44,568 nucleotides of DNA from a candidate division WS1 bacterium (GTDB lineage: Bacteria > Armatimonadota > Zipacnadia > Zipacnadales > UBA5352). A program made the position numbers and the translations under genes. Shown here one piece after another: positions 14,994-28,192 of this stretch. Under the pieces are notes generated by a model. It was given only the letters and a program-made list of their open reading frames with translations, was not told the DNA's origin and made no database searches. The DNA lies in assembly GCA_012522765.1 (NCBI GenBank), contig JAAYJW010000276.1:1-44568 (forward strand), written 5' to 3'. Within the stretch, counting starts at the first letter, position 1. Each line of letters opens with the position of its first letter.

Positions 14994-16589
14994 TCAGTTG
15001 CCGCGCGCGACGGTCACAACCGCCTCGACCACACGCCGCCCCAGTTCGCGGGCGCCTGTGGCGTCGATCGAGGGGAAGCAGGCGCGGGCGGACCACTCTC
15101 CGGCGCCGAAGGCCTCGCCGGGCGTGAGAATGACTTTCCAGCGTTCTGCCAGAGCAGCCAGCAGATCCCACAGCTCATGACGCCGCAGCGCCACCTCAAG
15201 TTCCGGCCCGCCATGCGCCCGCGCGACCTCGCGCAGGTCTATGACGGTGCTGTAACGGCTACTCGGCCCACTGACCCAGCCCGGTTCGGGCAGCCCCAGC
15301 CCCTCGTACAGCGCCGCAACACGCTCCCGAAGCTCTCCGCGCACCCAGCCGAAGTAGCGCGCGCTCTGCGGATCGATGACGTCATACGCCGCGCAGAGGC
15401 ATGCCAGCACCTGCAGCGGCGTAGAGAGCCCGCTCATGTGCGTGAAGCTCACGCCGCGGCTGTCGGCGATGACGCGCTCGGCCAGCGGCATCTCCGCGGG
15501 CTCCATCGCGCGGCGGCAGTAGCGGTCGTCGGCGTTCTCGCGATCCTCAGCGGCAAGACCGGCCAGCGCCTGCTGCGCGGCGCCCTCGGGGTGGATGAGG
15601 ACGGTGCCGATGCGCATCCCCGCGAGGCCAAAATCTTTCGATACGCTGTAGATGCCGATGGTATTGTGCGGCAGGCGCCCGATCTCGGTCTCCCCCGGCT
15701 CGTCAAGGAACTGCGCGTAGACATAGTCGGAGACAATCGGCAGTCGCGGATTTGCCGCCACCGCGCGCTCGAGGGCATCGAGGCTGCCGGCGTCCGTCGG
15801 CACCGGCACGGGATTGCCCGGCGAGACTGTGATCGCGAGAGTGATGGCCGGGTCATCAAGCTTGCGCAGTTCCTCCGGTGACGCCGCCCAGCCGGTCGCG
15901 GGATCGCGGTAGATCGGCACCACCTCACAGCCAAGCTGGCACTCGACGAGGTCGCGCAGCGGCTCGTAGGTGGGCCACCACATCGCCACTCGATCCCCGG
16001 GCTTGACGAGACCATTTCGGCCGAGCGTGGAGGCGACCATGGCGATGCCGGTCGTGGCGCCCTCGCAGCCGATGACCTGGAATTGCGCCGCCAGATCCGC
16101 ATCACCCATAAAGAGCAGCGGGGCGAGGTAGCGCGTAACGATCGGCTGAACGAAGTCGAGAGTCGGCGGTGTCGCGTATGCGCGGCCCGCGACTGCCTCG
16201 GTGAATTGATACACGATTCGGTCGCGGGAGCGCTCCGGAAATACCTCATCGGCCAGCCAGTTCCAGACCTCGGCGAGCAACTCGCAGCCATCGCGAAGAC
16301 CAGGATCTGCTGCGGCGATGCGCTCGGCAAACTGCGCGAACTGCTCGGCGTGAGGCGCGGCGGGGTCGAGCGTTAGCGCCACCTCGCCATCATCGGGCGG
16401 AGCGGCGGGCGCCGCGGCAGCGTAGAGCCCCAGAACATGCCACGCGTTCAGGACGCGCCGAAGCTGCCAGTTCGCCGCACCGCGCGATGCATCAAGCAGT
16501 TGGAGATCATCACGCTGCGACCGTGCGGCGTGCTCGAGCAGCACGTCCCGCAGAAGGAACGGGCTCTTGGTGGAAACCTGCGACTGCAC
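14994..16589 (-). CDS. Aspartate 4-decarboxylase-like PLP enzyme (AsdA family, aminotransferase fold I)
   Basis: 531 residues, the usual length of bifunctional aspartate 4-decarboxylase/aspartate aminotransferase and longer than ordinary ~400-residue aminotransferases. Matching features are an N-terminal FLLRDVLLEHAARS and ASRGAANW segment (AsdA: GRGNPNW), FVQPIVTRYL, a cofactor-phosphate region GCEGATTGIAMVASTL, and the PLP-Lys motif YSVSKDFGLAGMRIG. The NPSNPP-type segment is changed to SPGNPVPVP, so substrate or activity may differ. GTG 16589 has GGAGGAG 6 nt upstream; an in-frame ATG at 16646 lacks a site. By family the reaction is L-aspartate to L-alanine plus CO2. It stands alone, between a tmRNA gene and the cell-wall operon. 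A plain class I/II aminotransferase is the alternative. Confidence 0.7.
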   Translation of the reverse strand: MQSQVSTKSPFLLRDVLLEHAARSQRDDLQLLDASRGAANWQLRRVLNAWHVLGLYAAAAPAAPPDDGEVALTLDPAAPHAEQFAQFAERIAAADPGLRDGCELLAEVWNWLADEVFPERSRDRIVYQFTEAVAGRAYATPPTLDFVQPIVTRYLAPLLFMGDADLAAQFQVIGCEGATTGIAMVASTLGRNGLVKPGDRVAMWWPTYEPLRDLVECQLGCEVVPIYRDPATGWAASPEELRKLDDPAITLAITVSPGNPVPVPTDAGSLDALERAVAANPRLPIVSDYVYAQFLDEPGETEIGRLPHNTIGIYSVSKDFGLAGMRIGTVLIHPEGAAQQALAGLAAEDRENADDRYCRRAMEPAEMPLAERVIADSRGVSFTHMSGLSTPLQVLACLCAAYDVIDPQSARYFGWVRGELRERVAALYEGLGLPEPGWVSGPSSRYSTVIDLREVARAHGGPELEVALRRHELWDLLAALAERWKVILTPGEAFGAGEWSARACFPSIDATGARELGRRVVEAVVTVARGN

Positions 16590-16759
16590 GTGGCACTCCT
16601 CCGATGCGCGCAGTGGTGCGCGCCAGCATGCGGGTGGTAAAAACATAGTGTAACGCCCGCCATGCAGCGGGTCAACAGGGGCGGGAGTAGATGCGAACTT
16701 TAGACGGCATTCGCGCGTCTATTTCATTGAACAACGACGTCTGGCGGTCATGAGACAGG

Positions 16760-16813: not shown

Positions 16814-17161
16814 GGGGGCGATCGGCATCGACGGATAGGCTGTGAGTCGGGGCTGCGAGCCGAGATCTCCGGTATCTCGTTAATCCCGGAACCCTAATAA
16901 CTGCCAACAACGAACTGGCACTCGCGGCTTAATTGCCGTGACGTCCGCCTGACTTCCCGCCGATCGGGTCAGGGCCGGGCGTAATTGGATCGGCCGAAGC
17001 GTGCGCCTTTGCTCGATTAGCGCACGGGGGTAGCAGAATCGAGCTCTCCGTAGTGGACCCCGCGCCCGGGGGCCGCCTCGGATAAGAAAGCGGGCGCTAC
17101 GCTCGTAGATGCTTCGGACACCCCTGTTCGGACGCGGGTTCAATTCCCGCCGCCTCCACCA
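16814..17161 (+). ncRNA. ssrA: Transfer-messenger RNA (tmRNA)
   Basis: One-piece tmRNA of 348 nt with encoded CCA. The 5' GGGGGCG pairs with CGCCTCC (17151-17157) as the acceptor stem. The T arm is GCGGG-TTCAATT-CCCGC (17134-17150), followed by ACCA. The tag reading frame is at 16903-16932: GCC AAC AAC GAA CTG GCA CTC GCG GCT TAA, giving ANNELALAA, with LAA as the usual protease-recognition end. GC-rich paired blocks after the tag fit the pseudoknots. It rescues stalled ribosomes with SmpB, which is not in this window. A good promoter lies just upstream. Oddly, the whole molecule is bracketed by a 14-bp perfect inverted repeat that would base-pair even the CCA end in the precursor. Confidence 0.96.
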
Positions 17162-17242: not shown

Positions 17243-17659
17243 TCAGGCGGACTCTGAGGATGCTATCAGATCGCGGACGGTGGTCTGGTCGTACACCTCC
17301 AGCACCGCGTCCCGCGCCCGCTCCCACATGTGATGGAAGGGGCAGTTCCCCTGCAGTTCACAATGAGCGGTGTCCATCATGCAGTGCACGGGCACGAGAG
17401 GTCCCTGGATGTAGCGGATGATCTCGCCCACCGTGATCTGCCGCTCGGCATTGGCAAGCATGTAGCCGCCCTCTTTGCCGCGCTTCGAGTCGATGAAGCC
17501 ACCCGCCTTGAGTTGCGCCAGAATATTCTCCAGAAAGCGTGGCGGGATGGCCTGTGCCTCGGCAATGTCGCCGCTCTTGATCGGCCAGTCGCTCTCCCTG
17601 AGTGTGATCTCGTAGATCGCCCGCAACGCGTACTGGCACTTCTGTGAGAGTATCACCAC
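17243..17659 (-). CDS. Rrf2-family transcriptional regulator with three cysteines
   Basis: 138 residues. The winged-helix N-terminus is typical of Rrf2 (LSQKCQYALRAIYEITLRE, IPPRFLENILAQLKAGGFI, SKRGKEGGYMLA). The C-terminal half carries C-x6-C-x5-C (CMMDTAHCELQGNC), close to the Fe-S-ligating pattern of IscR and NsrR, so it probably holds an Fe-S cluster and senses redox, NO or cluster status. Two adjacent GTG codons (17659, 17656) follow AAGGAG; the second has the better spacing. It is divergent from the DUF1638-ASKHA operon across a 205-nt gap, so it may regulate that operon or itself. No isc/suf genes are nearby. Confidence 0.88.
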   Translation of the reverse strand: MVILSQKCQYALRAIYEITLRESDWPIKSGDIAEAQAIPPRFLENILAQLKAGGFIDSKRGKEGGYMLANAERQITVGEIIRYIQGPLVPVHCMMDTAHCELQGNCPFHHMWERARDAVLEVYDQTTVRDLIASSESA

Positions 17660-17789: not shown

Positions 17790-17819
17790 TTGCGCATTTG
17801 TGCATCAATCCGCTAAACT
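17790..17819 (+). promoter_or_regulatory. Possible promoter of the DUF1638-ASKHA operon
   Basis: TTGCGC (17790-17795), 18-nt spacer, TAAACT (17814-17819), 45 nt before ATG 17865 and inside the divergent gap with the Rrf2 gene. The match is moderate. I see no convincing palindrome for an operator. Confidence 0.3.
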
Positions 17820-17864: not shown

Positions 17865-20663
17865 ATGAGAATCAAGCTGCTCGGCTGCGGTGTATTTGAG
17901 CCGGAGCTTTACGCGCTTGTCCCACATTCACCCCACGAAGTTGACTTCGAGCCGCTCGAGGCCGGACTGCACGAGTACCCGAACAAGCTCCGGGAGTGTG
18001 TGCAGGAGGCCATCGATCGTGCCGCGGCAGAGGGCTACGATGCGGTCGCGCTCGCGTACGGCCTCTGTGGTCGCGGCACGTCGAATGTCGCTGCCCGCGG
18101 CATCACCGTCGTCATACCTCGGGTCCACGACTGCCTCACGCTCTTCCTCGGCTCACGCGAGGAGTATCGCCGGCAGTTTCGCGAGCACCCCGGCACCTAC
18201 TACATCACCCCCGGATGGTACTCGCGCAAGATGGGGATGGACCAGACGGGGCGGCCGCGAGCGTGGAGCCTTGACCCGCGCGACCATCCGCGCTGGGATG
18301 AGCTTGCCGAGCGCCATGGGGAAGAGGCCGCCGAGGAGATCATCACTTTCCTGGGAAGCTGGAAGCGCAACTATACGCGGGTGGCGGTGATTGACACCGG
18401 CTGCGAGGGCGTGGAGGAGTGCATGGGGCTGGCGGAACGTATGGCCGACAGCCTCGACTGGTGCTGCGAGCAGCTTCGCGGCGACACCTCCATGCTGCGC
18501 GACCTGGTGATGGGCGAGTGGGACGCTGAGCGCTTCCTCGTGCTGCGGCCGGGGCAGCGCTCGGAGGCGAGCGGCGACGACCAGGTGCTGATCGCGGTCT
18601 CCCCGGGCGCGCCTGGCGCTGAGGGGCCGATCCTCGATGCGCTGGTGGGCGGCGTAACGGGGGCGCTGGGCGAGCGCTCCGGCCTGGGGCTGGGCATTGA
18701 CGCGGGCGGCACCTACACAGATGCGGTCATCTACGACTTTGCCGCCGGCGAGGTGCTCACTAAGGCCAAAGCGCTCACCACGCACTACGACCCCCTGATC
18801 GGCATCAGCAATGCCATTGACGCCCTCGAGCAGCAGTTCATCCCCCTCATTGGGATGGTCGCGCTCTCCACGACCCATGCGACGAATGCGATCGTGGAGG
18901 ATCGCGGCGGGCAGCCCGGATGCATCATCCTGCCGCACGATGGCTTCGATGAGACGCGTGTGCTGTGGCCGCACAGGGCGATCGTTGGCGGCCGGATGAG
19001 CATCGGCGGCGACGAGCTTGTCGCGCTGGATGAGGATGAATGCCGCAAGGCGGTGCGGCGGCTGCTCGCAGAGGGCGTGGACGCCTTCGCGGTCTCTGGC
19101 TACGGCAGCACCCGCAACCCCGCGCACGAGCTACGGCTGCGCGAGATCATCGGCGAGCAGTGCGATCTGCCGGTCGTCTGCGGGCATGAACTCTCGGGGC
19201 GGCTGAACTTCCTCAGCCGCGCGAACACCGCCGCGCTGAACGCCCGACTGCTGCCGATCATTGACCGGCTGCTGGTGGCCACGCGCCGGGCGCTGGAAAA
19301 GCGCGGCATCGGCGCGCCCCTGATGATCGTCAAGGGCGATGGCTCGCTGATCAACAATGAGACGGCCCGGCAGCGCCCGGTGGAGACGGTTCTATCGGGG
19401 CCGGCGGCGAGTGTGCTGGGCGCAAGGCATCTTGCCGATCGCGATGACGCCATGATCATAGACGTCGGCGGCACCACCACGGATGCCGCGATCATCTGCG
19501 ACGGGCGAGCACGGCTCTCGCCTGAGGGGGCGCGGGTGGGCGGCTGGCAGACCTCGGTGGAGGCGGTGCGCATTCGGACGACGGGCCTCGGCGGCGATAG
19601 CGCACTCGACTTCGATGCTGACCGTCGACTGCTGGTCGGCCCGCGCAGGGCGATCCCGCTCTGCTACGTCTCGGCATCCGGGCTGGCGGACGTGACGGCC
19701 GTGCTCGAGCGCGTAACGCGCTGCGACGATCTCGTCTTCACCTGCGCGATGTCGCTGGACTTCCTCCTGCCCGGGCCGATGATCGAGCACCGGAACCTCA
19801 CGGACGCTGAGGAGCGACTGCTGGAGGCGCTTGAGGGCGGTGCGATCAATCGCGGCGATCTCGCGGTGCGGCTGGGGCTCGCCTCGCCGAGGCTGCTCAA
19901 CATCCGCGCGATGGAGGACCGCGGTGTCATCGCGCGCAGCGCTCTCACGCCGACGGACCTGCTGCACTTCACCGGCGACTTCATGGCCTGGGATGCCGCC
20001 GCGGCGAAAGCCGGCGTGGAGGCATTCGCGCTTCTCTACGGCTGCGACAGCGCGGAGCTTGTGCGGAAGCTGTGGGCGCGCATCATCCGCCGGCTCGCGC
20101 TGATGGCGATCTCGGAGGAGCTTGGCGGCGACACCGACCTGGAGACTGAGGCAGAGAGCAGTGAAACGCTGGCGCTGCTGGTCGAGCGCCTGCTGGCAGC
20201 CGATGGCGCGGAGGCGCTGGGGCTGGTCGCGCAGTATAGGCGGCCGATCGTGGGCATCGGCGCGCCGGCGCATGCGTTCCTTCCGCCGCTGCAGGCGTCA
20301 CTGGGGGGCGAGGTGCTGGTCCCCGAGCACGCCGAGGTGGCTAACGCCGTCGGGGCGATAGTGAGCCACGTGGCCGCCTCCGAGGTGGTCGCGGTGCGGC
20401 CGAGCGAGTATGATGCGTTCACCGTGTACGCTCCGGGCGGCAGGCGGGAGTTTGAGAGCCTGACGGATGCGGCCGCGTACGCCGCCGAAGAGGCCTCACG
20501 GACGGCGCGACAGCGGGCACTGGCGGCAGGCGCTACTGAGCCGCGTGTTGAAGTGGAAGTGGATCGCCGCGTGGGTAGGATCTCCACCGGCGAGGAGCAG
20601 TTGATTGAGGTCAATGTTCGCGCCACGGCGGTGGGTTACCCTACGGTGGCCGCGGCAACCTGA
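17865..20663 (+). CDS. DUF1638 domain fused to a hydantoinase/oxoprolinase (ASKHA) ATPase domain
   Basis: 932 residues. Residues 1-225 form a DUF1638 domain (LLGCGVFEPEL, AYGLCGRGTSNV, IPRVHDCLTLFLGS, YYITPGWYSRKMG) with four well-spaced Cys at 8, 69, 90 and 180. From ~274 there is a hydantoinase/oxoprolinase ASKHA ATPase: phosphate-1 loop GLGIDAGGTYTDAVIYD, STTHATNAIVEDRGG, phosphate-2 loop IIDVGGTTTDAAII (~527-542) and a GIGAPAHAFLPPL loop (~797). Between ~650 and 705 lies a winged-helix-like segment ending ALTPTDLLHFTG. No HyuB partner is present, so simple hydantoin or oxoproline hydrolysis is doubtful. DUF1638 genes are often seen near corrinoid methyltransferases, and ATP-driven ASKHA proteins reactivate corrinoids; that role is inference. 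First gene of a four-gene operon. Confidence 0.8.
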   Translation: MRIKLLGCGVFEPELYALVPHSPHEVDFEPLEAGLHEYPNKLRECVQEAIDRAAAEGYDAVALAYGLCGRGTSNVAARGITVVIPRVHDCLTLFLGSREEYRRQFREHPGTYYITPGWYSRKMGMDQTGRPRAWSLDPRDHPRWDELAERHGEEAAEEIITFLGSWKRNYTRVAVIDTGCEGVEECMGLAERMADSLDWCCEQLRGDTSMLRDLVMGEWDAERFLVLRPGQRSEASGDDQVLIAVSPGAPGAEGPILDALVGGVTGALGERSGLGLGIDAGGTYTDAVIYDFAAGEVLTKAKALTTHYDPLIGISNAIDALEQQFIPLIGMVALSTTHATNAIVEDRGGQPGCIILPHDGFDETRVLWPHRAIVGGRMSIGGDELVALDEDECRKAVRRLLAEGVDAFAVSGYGSTRNPAHELRLREIIGEQCDLPVVCGHELSGRLNFLSRANTAALNARLLPIIDRLLVATRRALEKRGIGAPLMIVKGDGSLINNETARQRPVETVLSGPAASVLGARHLADRDDAMIIDVGGTTTDAAIICDGRARLSPEGARVGGWQTSVEAVRIRTTGLGGDSALDFDADRRLLVGPRRAIPLCYVSASGLADVTAVLERVTRCDDLVFTCAMSLDFLLPGPMIEHRNLTDAEERLLEALEGGAINRGDLAVRLGLASPRLLNIRAMEDRGVIARSALTPTDLLHFTGDFMAWDAAAAKAGVEAFALLYGCDSAELVRKLWARIIRRLALMAISEELGGDTDLETEAESSETLALLVERLLAADGAEALGLVAQYRRPIVGIGAPAHAFLPPLQASLGGEVLVPEHAEVANAVGAIVSHVAASEVVAVRPSEYDAFTVYAPGGRREFESLTDAAAYAAEEASRTARQRALAAGATEPRVEVEVDRRVGRISTGEEQLIEVNVRATAVGYPTVAAAT

Positions 20664-20688
20664 GCCGGACGCAGATGAGGTGCTGCAG

Positions 20689-21477
20689 ATGGATGCGTCA
20701 GTGTTTGCGAAATGGTCTTCTCAGATAGAGGAGTTGATGGCGGGCAACCTCGAGCGACTTGTGCGCGAGGCGCTGGGGGAGTTGATCGAGGCCGGGGAGT
20801 TCGAGCTGCTGTCCCACCTGATGCTGACGGGGCCGGAATTTACCGCGCGGCGGATGACCGATGCGCTCATCAAGGTCGGTCGCTTTGAGCCGCTGATTGC
20901 CGGCGCCTGCCTGCGCAGAGAAATCAGACGCGGCGGGCAGCACGCCGGCGGCGCACTGGGGAGCAAGGCGATCTTCCGGGATTTCGAGGCGCCTGAGGCG
21001 GGTGAGCCGGGGGTGCCTGAGCATATCATGGAGGAGGCGGAGGCGATCGCAAGCCACGCCAACCAGGCGCGACGAATCGCCGCCCAGCGCGAGGCGCAGC
21101 TTGATCGCGATCCCGTCCGCCAGCACATTGTGGACCGTCTCGGCGAGTTGCTGAACACCTCGGAGGATGCGATGGAGGCAGTGATCGCCATCGCTCGGAC
21201 GTCGGTCTTCGAAGAGACGGCGCGCTCCGCGGGCATGAAGCTCGGCAACAACAAGATCGTGATGGGCCGGATCAGCCGCGCCGGTCGCGTTGCGGACATG
21301 GTCGCGGTCGGTGACGCCTCAGGCTCTCAGGCGGTCAAGACGATCATTGCTCGTAGCCTCGCATCGGCGATGCCGGAAAGCTCGGACCCGTCGTACCGGG
21401 CGGCGCTGGAGTACGTCGCCGACCACCATCCGCAGGAGGCCGTGCAGCGCGCGGCACGGAAGGCTCTGGGGCGGTAG
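20689..21477 (+). CDS. Unrecognised alpha-helical protein (HEAT-like?)
   Basis: 262 residues, not recognised. The composition is almost all helical, with amphipathic repeats of about 35-40 residues (for example LERLVREALGELIEAGEFEL, VRQHIVDRLGELLNTSED, YRAALEYVADHHPQEAVQRA), suggesting a HEAT-like scaffold. There is no signal peptide, membrane helix or Cys cluster. A loop (REIRRGGQHAGGALGSK) is rich in Gly and Arg. ATG 20689 is chosen for TGAGGTG about 6 nt upstream; an in-frame ATG at 20605 would overlap the upstream gene by 59 nt. It lies 25 nt after the DUF1638-ASKHA gene and 48 nt before the propeller gene, so it is co-transcribed and may be a partner of that ATPase. Confidence 0.75.
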   Translation: MDASVFAKWSSQIEELMAGNLERLVREALGELIEAGEFELLSHLMLTGPEFTARRMTDALIKVGRFEPLIAGACLRREIRRGGQHAGGALGSKAIFRDFEAPEAGEPGVPEHIMEEAEAIASHANQARRIAAQREAQLDRDPVRQHIVDRLGELLNTSEDAMEAVIAIARTSVFEETARSAGMKLGNNKIVMGRISRAGRVADMVAVGDASGSQAVKTIIARSLASAMPESSDPSYRAALEYVADHHPQEAVQRAARKALGR

Positions 21478-21525
21478 CGTTCTTCATCGGTCGAATCGGT
21501 TCGACTCCCCGAAAGGATACCCGCA

Positions 21526-22608
21526 GTGGACTACCGCAGCAGATGGCAACAGAGGCGGCGCGAGCGTGCAGTTCGCCTGCGCCTGATCCTGATCGTGGCG
21601 GCGGTGATTGCGGCGGTGTTCGCGATCATCTCCACGCGCGGCGTGGCAAGGCCTGCGCCCGCGGGGTACCAGCTTCTGCGGCCGGATATCTGCTGGCTCG
21701 CCGCCATCGAGGACGGGATCCTCGTAACCACCCGCTCCGGCATGCTCATCAAGCTCACGCCGGATCTGGCGCCTGCCGAGAACGGCTGGAGCGAGCCCTA
21801 CACGAGTCCTGCCGGGTTGTGGGGCCGCGCTGCCGTGGCAGATGGCAACGCGCTGATCGGTGGCGCCGATGTGCGGCTTCGGGCGATCGATCTCACTACC
21901 GCACTTGCCACCTGGGAAGTTGAAGTCGGCGGCGCGGTGCCGGGAGTAACGGTGTCGGGCGGCGAAGTGTTCTTCGGTTCGGACCTTCCGGCCATCTTCT
22001 CTGTCACAACCGCCGGCGTCCGTCGGTGGAGCAGGCCGCTCGATGATCACTCGGCCTCGCCTCCGCTGGTGACCGACGATGCCATCATCACCGGGACTCT
22101 GGCCGGGCAGGTGTGCGCGCTGGACCGCCGTGACGGGTCACTGCTATGGTGCCTGGAGACAGGCGCACCGATCTTTGCCCCGCCGCGGATGGGCCCGAGC
22201 AGCATCCTGGTGGGCGACGACGCCGGGCTGCTCCACAGCGTCACGCCGGCTGGCGACCTGCTCTTCTCGCTGGAGATGAACGGTGTAATACGACACGCCG
22301 CGGGCATCAGCGGCGGCGTGCTGGTGGTGGGCGATAGTTCGGGCCTGCTCTTGCGCATCAACCCGGCGGATATGACCGAGATCTGGCGGCGGCGGCTTCC
22401 GGGGCCACTCGCGGCCGAGCCTGTGATCGTGGGCGATGTCGTCTGGGTGGGAGCGGGCGAGCACCTGCTCGCGCTGAGGGTGGAGAGCGGCGCCACTATC
22501 TGCGAACGAGTCGCCGAGGCGGAAACGAGTGATGTCATTGCCGCGCACGGACGCATCTACTGGGCGACCACAAACGGCCGGGTTCGCGCCGTCAACTGCG
22601 ATGATTGA
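21526..22608 (+). CDS. Membrane-anchored PQQ-like beta-propeller protein
   Basis: 360 residues. A basic cytoplasmic N-terminus leads to one membrane helix (~19-37, LILIVAAVIAAVFAIIS). An extracytoplasmic beta-propeller follows, built from PQQ/BamB-type repeats in which a Trp or similar residue closes each blade (LATWEVEVGGAVPG, GSLLWCLETGAPIFAPP, TEIWRRRLPGPLAAEP). No dehydrogenase active-site residues are evident, so it is probably a scaffold or binding protein rather than a quinoprotein enzyme. GTG start at 21526 with GAAAGGA upstream. Third gene of the operon. No beta-barrel assembly gene is nearby, so BamB is unlikely. Confidence 0.8.
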   Translation: MDYRSRWQQRRRERAVRLRLILIVAAVIAAVFAIISTRGVARPAPAGYQLLRPDICWLAAIEDGILVTTRSGMLIKLTPDLAPAENGWSEPYTSPAGLWGRAAVADGNALIGGADVRLRAIDLTTALATWEVEVGGAVPGVTVSGGEVFFGSDLPAIFSVTTAGVRRWSRPLDDHSASPPLVTDDAIITGTLAGQVCALDRRDGSLLWCLETGAPIFAPPRMGPSSILVGDDAGLLHSVTPAGDLLFSLEMNGVIRHAAGISGGVLVVGDSSGLLLRINPADMTEIWRRRLPGPLAAEPVIVGDVVWVGAGEHLLALRVESGATICERVAEAETSDVIAAHGRIYWATTNGRVRAVNCDD

Positions 22609-22633
22609 ACCGGCAGCGGATTGGCGGTAGCAG

Positions 22634-23974
22634 ATGTCCCAGCCGATGCCGCAGACGAGCACAACTCAGCTCAGCCGCCGCAACTTCAAGGTCGGCGTCA
22701 TCAACGGCGCGTTCTGGCTGCTGGCCCGAGCGCTGACCGATCCCGACACCGTGCTTCCAGCTTTCGCCGTCGCACTGATGGGCGACAACCCGATCTACGT
22801 CGGGCTGCTCGTATCGCTGGTGAGCGCCGGCTGGTTCTGGCCCCCGCTGCTGATGACCACCACGATGGCGACGCGGCGCGACCGCCACGTCTACTACAAA
22901 GTCTCCGCGATCATCCGCCTGCTCTCGGTAGTCGGGCTCTGGGCGGCCGCGCGCTATCTCGCCCCGGAACGTCCCGCGCTGGCCTTCGTGGCGGTGAGCG
23001 TAAGCTACCTGGCGTTCACCTCCGGCGGCGGCATCGGCCTGATACCTTTCATGTCGGTCGTCACCGACTCGATCACCGCCTCCCGCCGGGGGCGCTTCTT
23101 CGCCATGCGCTTCTTCTTCGGCGGGCTGATGGCGTTCGGCGCGGGATTCTGGATCAGGTGGCTGCTGAGCGAGGACAGCGGACTGGCCTTTCCCGCCAAC
23201 TACGCCTATCTGTTCCTCGTCGCGGCTATAGTGGCGGCAGTCTCGCTTGTGGCATGGTGGGTAGCGTGGGAGCCAGCACACAAGATCGAGACACGGGCGC
23301 TCCCACTGCGCATCCAACTGCTGAGGGGTCTGCGGAGGTTGCGGCGCCTGCCGGTCTTCCGGCGCCTCGTCGGCACGCGCCTGATGATGTCGGCATCGTA
23401 CGGGCTGGTTGTGCCCTTCCTCATTCCCTATGCCTATGAGAACCTGGGCATGGTGGAGGCGATGGTCGGCGTCGCTCTGGCATCGCGCGTGCTCTGCTAC
23501 TCCATGTTCAACATCCTCTGGAGCCGCGTCTCGAGCCGCTACGGCAACCGCATGCTGCTGATTACATCCGGGGTGCTGCATCTGCTGGCGATCCTGATGG
23601 CGCTGATGACGCCGCTGTTGCCACCGGTGCAGACCGGTCAGTTGCTGGGGCTGGAGTTCAGCCTGCCGCTGATCGTGCTGATGATCATCTTCGGCGCGCT
23701 GGGGGCGGCCGATTCGGGGCAGCAGACGGGGCAGAGCGCGTATCTGCTGGAGTACGCACCCGAGCGGACGCGTCCGGTCTATCTCGCCACTTACTATCTC
23801 CTCGCGCTGCCGGTATCGTTCATGCCGCTCGCCACGGCACTGCTGATAGGCCAGGCGGGGCGTTACAGTCTCGTCTTCGGATTGGGGCTGCTGGCGGCGG
23901 CGATCAACGTCGTGCTGTATACGCGGCTCGTTCGCCTCGATGGCGACGAAGCCACCGAGGCGCCATCGTCCTGA
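22634..23974 (+). CDS. MFS transporter
   Basis: 446 residues with about 12 membrane helices in two six-helix halves, joined by a basic cytoplasmic loop (LPLRIQLLRGLRRLRRLP). Typical MFS features are the Asp/Arg-bearing loop after TM2 (TTTMATRRDRHVYYK) and a similar loop in the second half (WSRVSSRYGNRMLL). The substrate cannot be read from sequence. Start ATG 22634, 25 nt after the propeller gene, so it is the last gene of the operon beginning with the DUF1638-ASKHA fusion. It probably imports the operon's substrate or exports its product, which is inference. Confidence 0.85.
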   Translation: MSQPMPQTSTTQLSRRNFKVGVINGAFWLLARALTDPDTVLPAFAVALMGDNPIYVGLLVSLVSAGWFWPPLLMTTTMATRRDRHVYYKVSAIIRLLSVVGLWAAARYLAPERPALAFVAVSVSYLAFTSGGGIGLIPFMSVVTDSITASRRGRFFAMRFFFGGLMAFGAGFWIRWLLSEDSGLAFPANYAYLFLVAAIVAAVSLVAWWVAWEPAHKIETRALPLRIQLLRGLRRLRRLPVFRRLVGTRLMMSASYGLVVPFLIPYAYENLGMVEAMVGVALASRVLCYSMFNILWSRVSSRYGNRMLLITSGVLHLLAILMALMTPLLPPVQTGQLLGLEFSLPLIVLMIIFGALGAADSGQQTGQSAYLLEYAPERTRPVYLATYYLLALPVSFMPLATALLIGQAGRYSLVFGLGLLAAAINVVLYTRLVRLDGDEATEAPSS

Positions 23975-24193: not shown

Positions 24194-27100
24194 TCAGGGC
24201 TCGATGTGCAGGAGGTCCTCGTCGGTGCCCTCGCCGTCTGCAACCAGCCACTGCCGCACAATCTCAAGCGCTTCGTCTCGGCTTAGTGTTCGCCCGGAAA
24301 GCTGTCGGCGCAGTTCGGACAGGCTGCGCGACCGCACGTTCTGCCCGGCCAGCGAGCGCTGCAGGTGCGTGAGCACATCATCGCCCAGCAGCGGCATGAG
24401 CGCGCGCGCGCCCATGTCTTCGGGCATCCGCACAAGCTGCGCCAACTTGCGCACCGTCTCGCCCCGGTGGGGCAGCGAGCGCAGATAGTCGGCGAGAGCC
24501 CGCTGGTTGGCCGGTGAGCGCAGCGCACCGACATACTCCTGCACTCCCCGCGCCGCGAGATCACTGACTTCCTCCGGGGCCCGCAGATGGATCTCCTCCC
24601 CCAGCCGCAGACCGCAACTGGGGCATACCGGCCGCGTTTCAAGCTCCTGCGATAGAGACAACTCGCGGCAACGCTTGGCAAGTTCGCGCTCGATCTGATC
24701 GTTGACCGCGCTTAGATCGTGCTCGACCTCGATATCGAGCCGGTCCAGCGCCGAGAGCACTCGCATCTCGGGCGTCGCGCGCAGGGTGTTGTACGGCTCG
24801 AACTCCGATGCCCGGTAGACCGCGTTGTGCCACGCGCTGTAGCGGCGCTTGTAACGGGCGAAGAAGACCTGTGCGAGCCGGACGATTGTCTGCTCCTCCC
24901 CCACCGCCTCTTCGCCCGCGTCAATCGTCGCCAGCAGCCGATCGCGCAGTTCCGCGATGTCCGAGTCCTCGGGCAGCCAGAGGTCCTCGTCCTTGAGATA
25001 CTGCCGCAGCGCGACGATCTGCGGCGCAACATCCTCGGCGAAATGCTCCAGCAGTTCAACGACCCGCAGCAGGTCGCGGAGCTTGCTGACGCCGTTGGTG
25101 GTATCGAGGTACGGGTCGGCGCCCTCGATCAGATTCGCCAGGCCTTCGGCGGGGTATGCAGCCGGGTCTATCAGATTGAAGAAGCGTTCGACGTGCCCCA
25201 GTGCGCTGAAGGTCTCGCGCCAGACGGTCTGCGGCTGGTCGAGCTGGCCGCGCAGCTCATCTATCGCCGCGCGCAACTCCCCGATCCGCTCCAGCCACTC
25301 CTCCCGCGCCTCGATCAGCGCCTCCCAGATGATCGCCTGGGCGGCGTGGTCGGGGTTGGAGATGGCCTGGTCGAAGACGATGCGCGTGAGGCGCGAGAGC
25401 TTCTGCCAGTGCTCGTAGGAAAGCAGCGCCGGCCGCGCCACCATCTGCAGATGCCGGGCGATCGGCGTCGGGATGTCGGCAAGCTGCACCGGCGTCTCAT
25501 GCTCATCGAGGGCCATCAGGTGGCCACGGCGGATGAGCGAGGCGATGAGCAGCTCAAAGAGCTCCGGCGGCAGGCCAAGCTCTGACTTCAGGAGATGCTC
25601 CGCGAGATCGGCGCAGACGAGCGGTCGGCCCCGCTGCGTTTCAGGGGTCTGGTCGCGCGCGCGGATACGCTGCATGACCTCGTCGGCGGCTGCCGAGCGC
25701 GCGATGTCGAGCAGGTAGGTCGGCCCCTCGGGAGTGTCCTCCCGTCGCGCGACGCCCAGCGGAATCATGAAGGCCTCGATCAGCGTCCCGAGGCGCGAGT
25801 CGGGCTCAGGATCGGCGTAGCCGGGCCGGATGAAGCGGTCTATGAGCAGGTCTATCTGGCGGCGCGCTGAGAGGAACTGCCGCGGGGCGATCCGCGCGAA
25901 CTCCGGGAAGACGCGCTCGAGCGACCACGCGGCCATCGTGCTGATGGCGCTGCGCCAGTCTCCATCCATCGCGGAAAGCTCGGCGCTTGAGACCGCCTCG
26001 CCGAAGGCGCTCTCGACGGTCCCCTCGTAGTAGGCGGCTCTGACGACATCGGCAACCTGTGCGCCAAGCCGCGCCTCTTCCTCCTCAAGGCGCTGCAGGA
26101 GGCCACGCTCCTGTTCGAGGCCTTTGCGCTGGCTCAGAAGCAGCCTGCAGGCCGCGCAATCGCGCAGGGCATCAAGCTCCCGTTCGTGCAGTGAGCGCGG
26201 GATCCAGCACAGCACCGAGGCGGACCAACGCCCTGCCATCGCCCCGTCGGTTATCTCGCGCCAGCGAGAACGCTGCTGGTCGGCCGAGGTGAGCGTGGCG
26301 ATGTACAGGTGTACGTTCGCGAGGTTCGCCGGCTCCGAGAGCTCCTGCACGCGGCGGTCGATCTCAAGCTCATCGAGCTTATGCACAGGCGCCAGTGAGG
26401 CAGATGCCGCCCGCGCGGTGTTGCGCCAGTGTACCTCAAGCAGCGTCTCCTCCTTCAGTTCACCCAGTGGGATCGTGGGGCCGGCGTAGGCGATCGCCGT
26501 CTGCATCAGTCGCGGGTCATCACGCGAGATGCCCTCACGCGCGAGTGACAGGCGCTCGCGCAGGGTGTCGCCAATCGGCGTATGCACCTCAATGTAGTAG
26601 ACGTCCTCCGCCTCTTCGCGCCCGCGCCTCACCTCGACGAAGCGGCCGTGCAGACGTGCGGCCTCCAGCACTTCGCGCACCTGCGCTCTGTCCGCGACCG
26701 GCTTACCCTCGGCGTCCATGCCGAGCGCCTGCCACAGATCGTCCTCGCCCGGCCAGAGGTTGGCGAGGCGCAGGGCTGTGAGCGCGCGGATGACCCGGCG
26801 GAGCAGATCGGCCTGCGCCGGCGCCACCTCCGCGCCATGCGCTTCGTAGTACTCCAGCGCCTGACCGAGGTAAGGCGCCGCATCCGGGTTGGAGCGAAGC
26901 TGCGGCTGCAGCAGGTCGAAGACCTCAGGCAGCCCGAGCGGCTGCAGATGGGTGCGCTCCGCGAGAAGGCCCGACTCCTGTGCGGCGCGCAGCACCAGCA
27001 GCAGGCCGTCCGCGCGCCCCAGCACCCGTGCGGCAAGCTCTTCGGCAGCGTGTGCCGCCTGTGGGTGCAGAGGGAAATGCTCGATGAGCGCGTCGGCATC

Positions 27101-28192
27101 GGCGGCCTCGCCGAAGGCGCTCTCATGCGCCGCCACCATCTGCTCAAGCGCCTCATCGGACGCCTCGCCGGCGGCGGGACGCAGCGCGTGGGCGACCACC
27201 GAGCGCATGTGCGCCGCGGAGAGCGACAGGCCGCCACGGTAGAGATCAGAGATGCGGCGGGCGAGCGAGGCCTCCATCCCGGGGATCTCGCGCAGCGGCA
27301 TCTCCATCGTGGCTACCGTCCAGATCGGCGCGATCTTGCCGCGATGGGCGAGGAACTCGAGGAAGACGAGATCGCCCTGCATGGCTTTGTCGTCCACCGA
27401 GGAGAGGAAGTCGCCGAGGTCGTCTATGAGGTAGAGCACGCCCGAGAGGCGCTCACCATCAACGATCTCCAGCAGCCGCGCCATCCGCTCCACGCGCGAC
27501 TGCCGAAAGTCGAGGGGGTAGTTGATCGACTGCGCGAACTGGTGTCCGATGCGCACGGCGGCTTCCTCGTCGCGCTCGCGCAACTGCTCCCACGTCTCGC
27601 CGCGGGTGGAGCGGTCGGCGGTATACTCATCAAGGTCATCAGCGAAGCGCGGGACGACGTGGCGCTCGATCAGCTCGAGGGCGTACGAGTGCTGTGAGAG
27701 TGGCACCACGATCTCGTGGGGAGGCCGGCGCAGCTCCCACTCGGCCCGCTCAAAGATGATGTCCTCGAGCAGCTCCTCCCGCCCGGAGTGCTCCTCCAGC
27801 GGCAGCGGCACCACCAGCAGCGGGGCCATCTCGTGGATGGCTTTGAGATGATCGGCGAACTGCCGCTGCCTGCGGGCGAGACGTTTGCGGGCATCCGGCG
27901 CGCCGGCGAGCAGCAGCAGCGTGGCGAGCAGGTGCGACTTGCCGGCACCCGCAGGACCGGTGATGAGGAAGCCCTCGCCCTTGCCGTCGCCGGAGGAGAG
28001 GCGTTCGAGCATCGGGCCGACGGTGCCCAGCAGTTCGGGATCGTCATGGGTGTAGGCGGAGAGGATATCATCGAGCCGATCAACAGCCGCCTGATCGGGC
28101 TCACCGAGCAGGCGTCGCCGCATGGCCGCGGCATCATCAAGCTCGAAGCTGTCCTGCAGGCCCTCGATTGTGAGGAGATCGGAAAGTGTCAT
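24194..28192 (-). CDS. Giant P-loop ATPase resembling BrxC/PglY (DUF6079-like)
   Basis: 1332 residues, no membrane helix. Walker A is GPAGAGKSHLL (79-89) and Walker B is VLYLIDDLGDFL (252-263). A sensor-like strand WTVATMEMPLREI (~291-303) follows, with helical and winged-helix-like regions to the end. Near the C-terminus is a Cys pair, CPSCGLRLGEE, like a half zinc ribbon. Length, an N-terminal ATPase that sits early, GKSHL, and the late CPSCG element recall BREX BrxC/PglY and DUF6079 proteins. None of the other BREX genes (pglX methylase, pglZ, brxA/B/L) is present. It stands alone, with the divergent repeat block upstream and a terminator downstream. ATG start at 28192. A solitary phage-defence or DNA-handling ATPase is one inference; a general AAA/STAND-like ATPase is the alternative. 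Confidence 0.65.
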   Translation of the reverse strand: MTLSDLLTIEGLQDSFELDDAAAMRRRLLGEPDQAAVDRLDDILSAYTHDDPELLGTVGPMLERLSSGDGKGEGFLITGPAGAGKSHLLATLLLLAGAPDARKRLARRQRQFADHLKAIHEMAPLLVVPLPLEEHSGREELLEDIIFERAEWELRRPPHEIVVPLSQHSYALELIERHVVPRFADDLDEYTADRSTRGETWEQLRERDEEAAVRIGHQFAQSINYPLDFRQSRVERMARLLEIVDGERLSGVLYLIDDLGDFLSSVDDKAMQGDLVFLEFLAHRGKIAPIWTVATMEMPLREIPGMEASLARRISDLYRGGLSLSAAHMRSVVAHALRPAAGEASDEALEQMVAAHESAFGEAADADALIEHFPLHPQAAHAAEELAARVLGRADGLLLVLRAAQESGLLAERTHLQPLGLPEVFDLLQPQLRSNPDAAPYLGQALEYYEAHGAEVAPAQADLLRRVIRALTALRLANLWPGEDDLWQALGMDAEGKPVADRAQVREVLEAARLHGRFVEVRRGREEAEDVYYIEVHTPIGDTLRERLSLAREGISRDDPRLMQTAIAYAGPTIPLGELKEETLLEVHWRNTARAASASLAPVHKLDELEIDRRVQELSEPANLANVHLYIATLTSADQQRSRWREITDGAMAGRWSASVLCWIPRSLHERELDALRDCAACRLLLSQRKGLEQERGLLQRLEEEEARLGAQVADVVRAAYYEGTVESAFGEAVSSAELSAMDGDWRSAISTMAAWSLERVFPEFARIAPRQFLSARRQIDLLIDRFIRPGYADPEPDSRLGTLIEAFMIPLGVARREDTPEGPTYLLDIARSAAADEVMQRIRARDQTPETQRGRPLVCADLAEHLLKSELGLPPELFELLIASLIRRGHLMALDEHETPVQLADIPTPIARHLQMVARPALLSYEHWQKLSRLTRIVFDQAISNPDHAAQAIIWEALIEAREEWLERIGELRAAIDELRGQLDQPQTVWRETFSALGHVERFFNLIDPAAYPAEGLANLIEGADPYLDTTNGVSKLRDLLRVVELLEHFAEDVAPQIVALRQYLKDEDLWLPEDSDIAELRDRLLATIDAGEEAVGEEQTIVRLAQVFFARYKRRYSAWHNAVYRASEFEPYNTLRATPEMRVLSALDRLDIEVEHDLSAVNDQIERELAKRCRELSLSQELETRPVCPSCGLRLGEEIHLRAPEEVSDLAARGVQEYVGALRSPANQRALADYLRSLPHRGETVRKLAQLVRMPEDMGARALMPLLGDDVLTHLQRSLAGQNVRSRSLSELRRQLSGRTLSRDEALEIVRQWLVADGEGTDEDLLHIEP

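Follow-up and report, generated by a model that had tools for sequence, protein, structure and literature searches.

The window examined here, a 44,568-nucleotide stretch of DNA that makes up an entire contig of a candidate division WS1 genome rated 97.7% complete, encodes a 932-residue protein in which a DUF1638 domain is joined in one reading frame to a hydantoinase-type ASKHA ATPase. This fusion probably uses ATP to maintain (reactivate) corrinoid methyl-transfer proteins, working alongside RACo. We favor this reading because DUF1638 co-occurs with RACo, because of the methyl-transfer gene set of the window's own genome, because unfused sister ATPases and a Desulfobulbaceae fusion (L179) lie in corrinoid gene clusters, and because of published genetics in Phaeobacter inhibens. 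An earlier note, made from the window's sequence alone, had suggested that the locus may be a substrate-uptake and corrinoid- or redox-handling module of a new kind; the corrinoid-handling part of that interpretation is well supported, whereas substrate uptake is unsupported and 'new kind' too strong, as set out below.

Architecture, phylogeny and spread of the fusion

The fusion and its two halves occupy the following positions in the window:

17865-20663, + strand: DUF1638–ASKHA fusion open reading frame (ORF), 932 aa, ATG start
17865-18560, + strand: DUF1638 domain of the fusion, residues 1-232 (PF07796, E 2e-42 at residues 31-214)
18690-20663, + strand: Hydant_A-type ASKHA ATPase domain, residue 276 to the end (Pfam, alignment, and Foldseek)

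The earlier note had named the lack of a DUF1638 match in the N-terminus as grounds for giving up its proposal; the Pfam match is present at the E-value listed, scoring 145 bits where the cut-off is 27. Across an alignment of 56 fused and standalone DUF1638 domains, Cys8, His36, Cys68, Cys90, and Gly96 are invariant, and His88 and Asp89 almost so. The structural model of the domain is confident (predicted local distance difference test, pLDDT, 95); its first four strands terminate at residues 8, 31, 64, and 85, so that the four invariant candidate ligands are predicted to sit at or just past the C-terminal ends of successive strands. Such a placement is what would be expected of a metal or catalytic site, and Cys8, His36, Cys68, and Cys90 likely form a metal or thiolate site. 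Among solved structures, Foldseek returned no convincing counterpart of the model (best E 3e-3, TM about 0.2), and a DUF1638 profile search of the PDB likewise gave nothing convincing.

The ATPase half comprises Hydant_A_N at residues 276-432 (E 2e-32) and Hydantoinase_A at residues 452-617 (E 5e-31), both above the Pfam cut-offs, and carries the ASKHA motifs GIDAGGTYTD, DVGGTTTD, GLGGDS, and HAEVANA, with the phosphate and adenosine motifs retained. Foldseek places it near the ATPase subunits of acetone carboxylase and NMHase, with RACo (3zyy, 4c1n) more distant. The Pfam scan of the fusion recovered neither PF14574 (RACo_C_ter) nor any ferredoxin-type Fe-S domain, and the linker and middle domains of RACo are without counterpart in it.

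Given that sequence and fold lie nearest to HyuA, NMHase, caprolactamase, and acetone carboxylase ATPase subunits—HyuA, caprolactamase alpha, and acetone carboxylase beta all sharing the common Hydant_A_N and Hydantoinase_A fold—the ASKHA half might instead belong to a metabolic enzyme, an ATP-dependent amidohydrolase or carboxylase in which DUF1638 replaces HyuB as the second half-site. Several observations make this improbable. The missing HyuB half remarked on in the earlier note extends to the whole genome of the window, in which PF02538 is absent. In the ATPase-domain tree, a single branch (support 93) unites 50 fusions with 10 unfused rows and is nested in an ASKHA clade that a 99*-supported branch separates from all 12 HyuA paralogues; the clade motif is GLGGDS, compared with GAGGGS or GLGGGS in the HyuA paralogues where readable, and the fusion further differs from HyuA-type enzymes in having DUF1638 in front. 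Moreover, the sister ATPases lie in corrinoid clusters, and standalone DUF1638 tracks RACo rather than hydantoin metabolism. With HyuB lacking, the clade separate, and the motif different, a hydantoinase/oxoprolinase function was rejected as the most likely one.

The spread of the architecture was surveyed in a GTDB-wide scan with one genome for each species, from which the 80 best loci were taken. The two domains lie in a single frame at 45 of these, the remaining 35 being unfused, and 19 additional copies (45-77% identity) align over their full length with the window fusion. The fusion is therefore not an assembly or chance event; it is real and old. The quick ATPase-domain tree requires nine architecture changes; the simplest reading, though not a proven one, is a single origin of the fusion followed by several losses or frame breaks. 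The close relatives of the window genome belong to Armatimonadota, class Candidatus Zipacnadia; beyond this lineage, intact fusions occur in Planctomycetota, Desulfobacterota (Desulforhopalus singaporensis, Desulfocicer vacuolatum, Desulfosarcina widdelii), Spirochaetota, Omnitrophota, Latescibacterota, and Lentisphaerota. We found no description of the fused DUF1638–ASKHA form in the open-access papers searched, and the paper on Zipacnadia holds no content on methyltransferases or cobalamin.

Association with RACo and corrinoid methyl-transfer genes

In 101 genomes of the window's phylum, scored with DUF1638 and RACo_C_ter as markers, the two occur together in 71, DUF1638 alone in none, RACo alone in 14, and neither in 16 (Fisher 9e-11); the corresponding family-level counts are 27, 0, 2, and 5 (p 8e-5). 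That DUF1638 is never present without RACo bears out the corrinoid link drawn in the earlier note. The ASKHA clade likewise always accompanies RACo (38/38 genomes), and it occurs without DUF1638 only in G006, where just the final 56 residues were recovered.

The window's genome holds a compact methyl-transfer inventory. Its one DUF1638 domain is that of the fusion; its one RACo (G000:C118), with Fer2, linker, middle, and C-terminal domains, is directly followed by one corrinoid protein (B12-binding and B12-binding_2). Also encoded are a single homocysteine methyltransferase (PF02574, 297 aa), a likely dihydropteroate synthase, and a single further pterin-binding protein, a short methyltransferase (296 aa); the MetH reactivation domain, MetE, MttB, and HyuB were each not found in it. 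Because the parts of MetH are separate and both MetE and the reactivation domain are missing, methionine is most likely made via a split cobalamin-dependent synthase in this organism. A small TPR protein is encoded directly 5' of the RACo and corrinoid-protein genes (L141:8480-11472, G000:C118); in G009 and G019, too, RACo is preceded by a similar small protein.

Gene neighborhoods in other genomes point the same way, and the corrinoid neighbors that the earlier note had asked for are found beside relatives of the fusion. Unfused sister ATPases, including those of Sporomusa ovata, Desulfosporosinus, and Formimonas, adjoin MttB, corrinoid-protein, MtgA-type, or RACo genes at 17 of 35 loci, and the corrinoid-type genes around them cluster within 4 kb (42 versus 12, p 1e-4). 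ASKHA and DUF1638 are separate adjacent genes in Paradesulfitobacterium (L209; in part, MttB-B12-Pterin-ASKHA-DUF1638-RACo) and in a Geobacter metagenome-assembled genome (L223; B12-UROD-CobW-UROD-RACo-ASKHA-DUF1638). Fusions stand in comparable settings: a BCCT-fusion-sigma54 activator-MttB-B12-Pterin-RACo cluster, confirmed with Pfam, in Desulfobulbaceae (L179); MttB-FAD oxidoreductase-fusion-MFS in Desulfotignum (L178); B12-UROD-CobW-fusion in Spirochaetales (L192); and, in a further WS1 genome (G027; L045/L166), a fusion adjoining a pterin methyltransferase, with MetF and FolD in the same stretch. Two unfused ASKHA loci, L062 (G045) and L064 (G043), encode large proteins of similar start (DLRSALKKLDGQGYPAYKAL and ALRTALMAISGRDYPAYRSL) close to the ASKHA gene; these large proteins may be ABC-class ATPases.

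Several results weigh against a maintenance role in corrinoid methyl transfer. Corrinoid genes lie within 8 kb at only 10 of the 45 fusion loci, and the distribution of their distances from fusions lacks significance (p 0.23). Fusions of the window's lineage are separate from the RACo and corrinoid-protein genes and adjoin unrelated ones; in the window, no RACo, corrinoid-protein, or MtgA-type gene stands next to the fusion. The co-occurrence counts were corrected for descent at the family level only, so that shared ancestry may still contribute. Finally, the window's genome already has a complete RACo, which leaves the added contribution of the fusion not obvious and led us to reject the idea that the fusion substitutes for RamA/RACo.

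The presence of RACo, which already provides reduction, also favors a different kind of corrinoid service, in which the fusion would load, store, or swap the corrinoid cofactor as a chaperone like the diol dehydratase reactivase rather than aid reduction, with DUF1638 holding corrinoid or metal. ASKHA ATPases without Fe-S domains serve as cofactor-swapping reactivases in other B12 systems (DdrA), GlmL and MutL profiles match the fusion weakly at its first phosphate motif, and CobW genes lie near in L192 and L223. On the other hand, the fusion has no match to the DDR family; its best MutL match spans only 49 residues; and the GlmL match covers only about 50, the GlmL equivalogs scoring far below cut-off. 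We judge cofactor swapping rather unlikely, and retain reactivation alongside RACo as the favored reading.

The window locus and its lineage-specific partners

Around the fusion, the window carries the following further features:

17243-17659, - strand: divergent Rrf2 regulator with C-x6-C-x5-C (Rrf2 E 9e-37; Cys spacing from sequence)
17790-17819, + strand: predicted promoter-like block 5' of the fusion (TTGCGC, 18 nt, TAAACT), conserved in most genomes of the same family when their upstream regions are aligned
20689-21477, + strand: helical HEAT-like protein, gene 2 of the putative operon (262 aa, ATG start; sub-threshold HEAT_2 match, E 0.015)
21526-22608, + strand: PQQ_2/BamB-type beta-propeller with N-terminal membrane anchor (360 aa; PQQ_2 E 3e-19)
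22634-23974, + strand: MFS carrier (446 aa; MFS_1 E 6e-14)
104-1570, + strand: URO-D-type methyltransferase with C-terminal thioredoxin-like CxxC (URO-D E 7e-56)
1567-2481, + strand: CobW-family GTPase; 4-nt overlap with the URO-D gene (cobW E 1e-34)

ORF calls and Pfam reproduce what the earlier note had described, namely the fusion followed, at gaps of 25, 48, and 25 nt, by the HEAT-like, propeller, and MFS genes in turn, with a Cys-type Rrf2 gene in divergent orientation; the second gene, which it had called an unrecognised helical protein, indeed gives just the weak HEAT_2 match. From its Cys spacing, the Rrf2 regulator is likely of the Fe-S type. In the upstream region of the fusion, inspection by eye revealed the promoter-like block and no clear conserved palindrome that could be an Rrf2 operator, and an Rfam search of the window and a set of the loci for cobalamin or S-adenosylmethionine (SAM) riboswitches found nothing besides transfer-messenger RNA (tmRNA).

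In the neighbor survey, the HEAT-like gene is next to the fusion at 10/10 same-lineage loci, with propeller and MFS-type genes at most of them, and none of the three clusters reaches beyond the window's lineage (family). These genes are a lineage-specific addition. Being limited to the window's own family and indicating no substrate, they leave the proposed substrate-uptake module unsupported. Their constancy could also mean that the fusion of this family was recruited, together with them, to an envelope or redox role and lost its corrinoid service. The family's fusion is always found with the HEAT-like gene, mostly with the propeller and MFS genes, adjoins no corrinoid gene, and has the divergent Cys-type Rrf2 gene upstream. 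Its key residues are unchanged, however, and it is the sole DUF1638 protein of a genome having RACo and a split MetH, so that the corrinoid role would otherwise be unfilled. Recruitment accordingly ranks as the least probable of the explanations considered, and a role in corrinoid maintenance as the better account of the window-family fusion too.

The URO-D and CobW genes are possible functional partners of the fusion, through a weak link. In L192 and G008 (L039), homologues of the window URO-D (42-64%) occur close to the fusion, a suggestive recurrence, and CobW is again beside URO-D in L039, L192, and L223. The nearness of URO-D in the window itself was given little weight because the genome contains 36 URO-D matches, which makes chance proximity frequent. 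These 36 family matches, in a 4.9-Mb genome with no MttB, represent a large expansion of probable corrinoid methyltransferases or demethylases.

Other genes of the region are recorded as observations. A tmRNA gene (16814-17161, + strand) lies near the Rrf2–fusion locus, as it does near the fusion in same-family loci L032, L036, and L037. An aminotransferase (14994-16646, - strand) is akin to aspartate 4-decarboxylase but below NCBIfam cut-offs; genomes G007 and G008 likewise have homologues of it close to the fusion. The MFS gene is followed by a BrxC/PglY-like large ATPase (24194-28192, - strand; DUF6079; PADLOC BrxC E 2e-8) that adjoins the fusion operon in several genomes of the same family; the few window proteins that were scanned included no further recognisable defense gene. 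MutS and LytR genes lie downstream in some relatives, which reflects differing chromosomal settings and from which we draw no functional meaning.

Proposed mechanism, precedents and implications

In the window's organism, the target of the fusion would be the single corrinoid protein of the split cobalamin-dependent methionine synthase, served together with the RamA/RACo-type activase, and perhaps also URO-D-type methyltransferases sharing that corrinoid protein. The ASKHA domain would bind the corrinoid protein, and ATP would open it and expose the cobalt, a mode of action proposed for the ATPase moiety of RACo. DUF1638, tethered to the ASKHA domain and bearing the invariant Cys3-His site, might then act on the exposed cobalt or hand over electrons or a ligand. 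We infer corrinoid-protein binding, ATP hydrolysis, and metal or thiolate chemistry for the fusion, and the specific chemistry sketched here is offered tentatively, as possible but doubtful in its details: for DUF1638, electron passage, ligand removal, and the holding of a metal or corrinoid are all compatible with the sequence.

RamA/RACo (RACE) is among the nearest known parallels, having likewise an ASKHA fold, a Cys-bearing domain N-terminal to the ATPase, and a tie to corrinoid proteins; it differs in possessing RACo_C_ter, linker, middle, and Fe-S ferredoxin domains, and the fusion is present besides a complete RACo. Genetic evidence comes from Phaeobacter inhibens, in which a DUF1638 gene (PGA1_c13340) and a RamA-like gene are both required for methionine synthesis, the authors making no specific proposal for the function of DUF1638 (PMC5764234). 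PGA1_c13340 belongs to the same Pfam family as the fusion N-terminus but is standalone, whereas the domain is ASKHA-fused here; its genome resembles that of the window: a RamA-like activase is present, methionine synthase is split, and a MetH reactivation domain is lacking as far as tested. Growth on N-osmolytes goes with a higher abundance of the DUF1638 and RamA-like proteins in Ruegeria (PMC12478193).

The ATPase half has probably been drawn before. For Sporomusa ovata and Formimonas DCMF, published maps of their glycine-betaine methyltransferase clusters show a gene named 'HydA, hydantoinase', to which no function is assigned (PMC9768040). The Sporomusa ovata (L208) and Formimonas (L203) homologues in our dataset fall in the same ASKHA clade, adjoin corrinoid-protein or MttB genes, and are unfused to DUF1638; their identity with the published 'HydA' genes is inferred rather than established by locus tag. 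With the unfused ATPase apparently already depicted (PMC9768040) and a role of DUF1638 beside a RamA-like protein already shown (PMC5764234), 'of a new kind' was too strong a description: what appears to be new is the fused form.

The natural fusion, together with the adjacent separate genes of Paradesulfitobacterium and Geobacter, suggests that DUF1638 and the ATPase work as one unit. A bolder proposal, which we hold to be conceivable though doubtful, is that DUF1638 is a new metal- or thiolate-bearing, cobalt-handling domain without a solved fold relative, and that the fusion is a second class of ATP-driven corrinoid reactivase operating in series with RACo; this class would be widespread among bacteria and required for B12-dependent methionine synthesis and methylotrophy. 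Our results also suggest that 'hydantoinase' annotations are misleading in methylotrophic clusters and in Armatimonadota, Planctomycetota, and Desulfobacterota. By linking the unexplained DUF1638 family to an ATPase and offering four invariant residues as targets for mutation, the fusion makes the question of how cobalamin enzymes are kept active directly testable.

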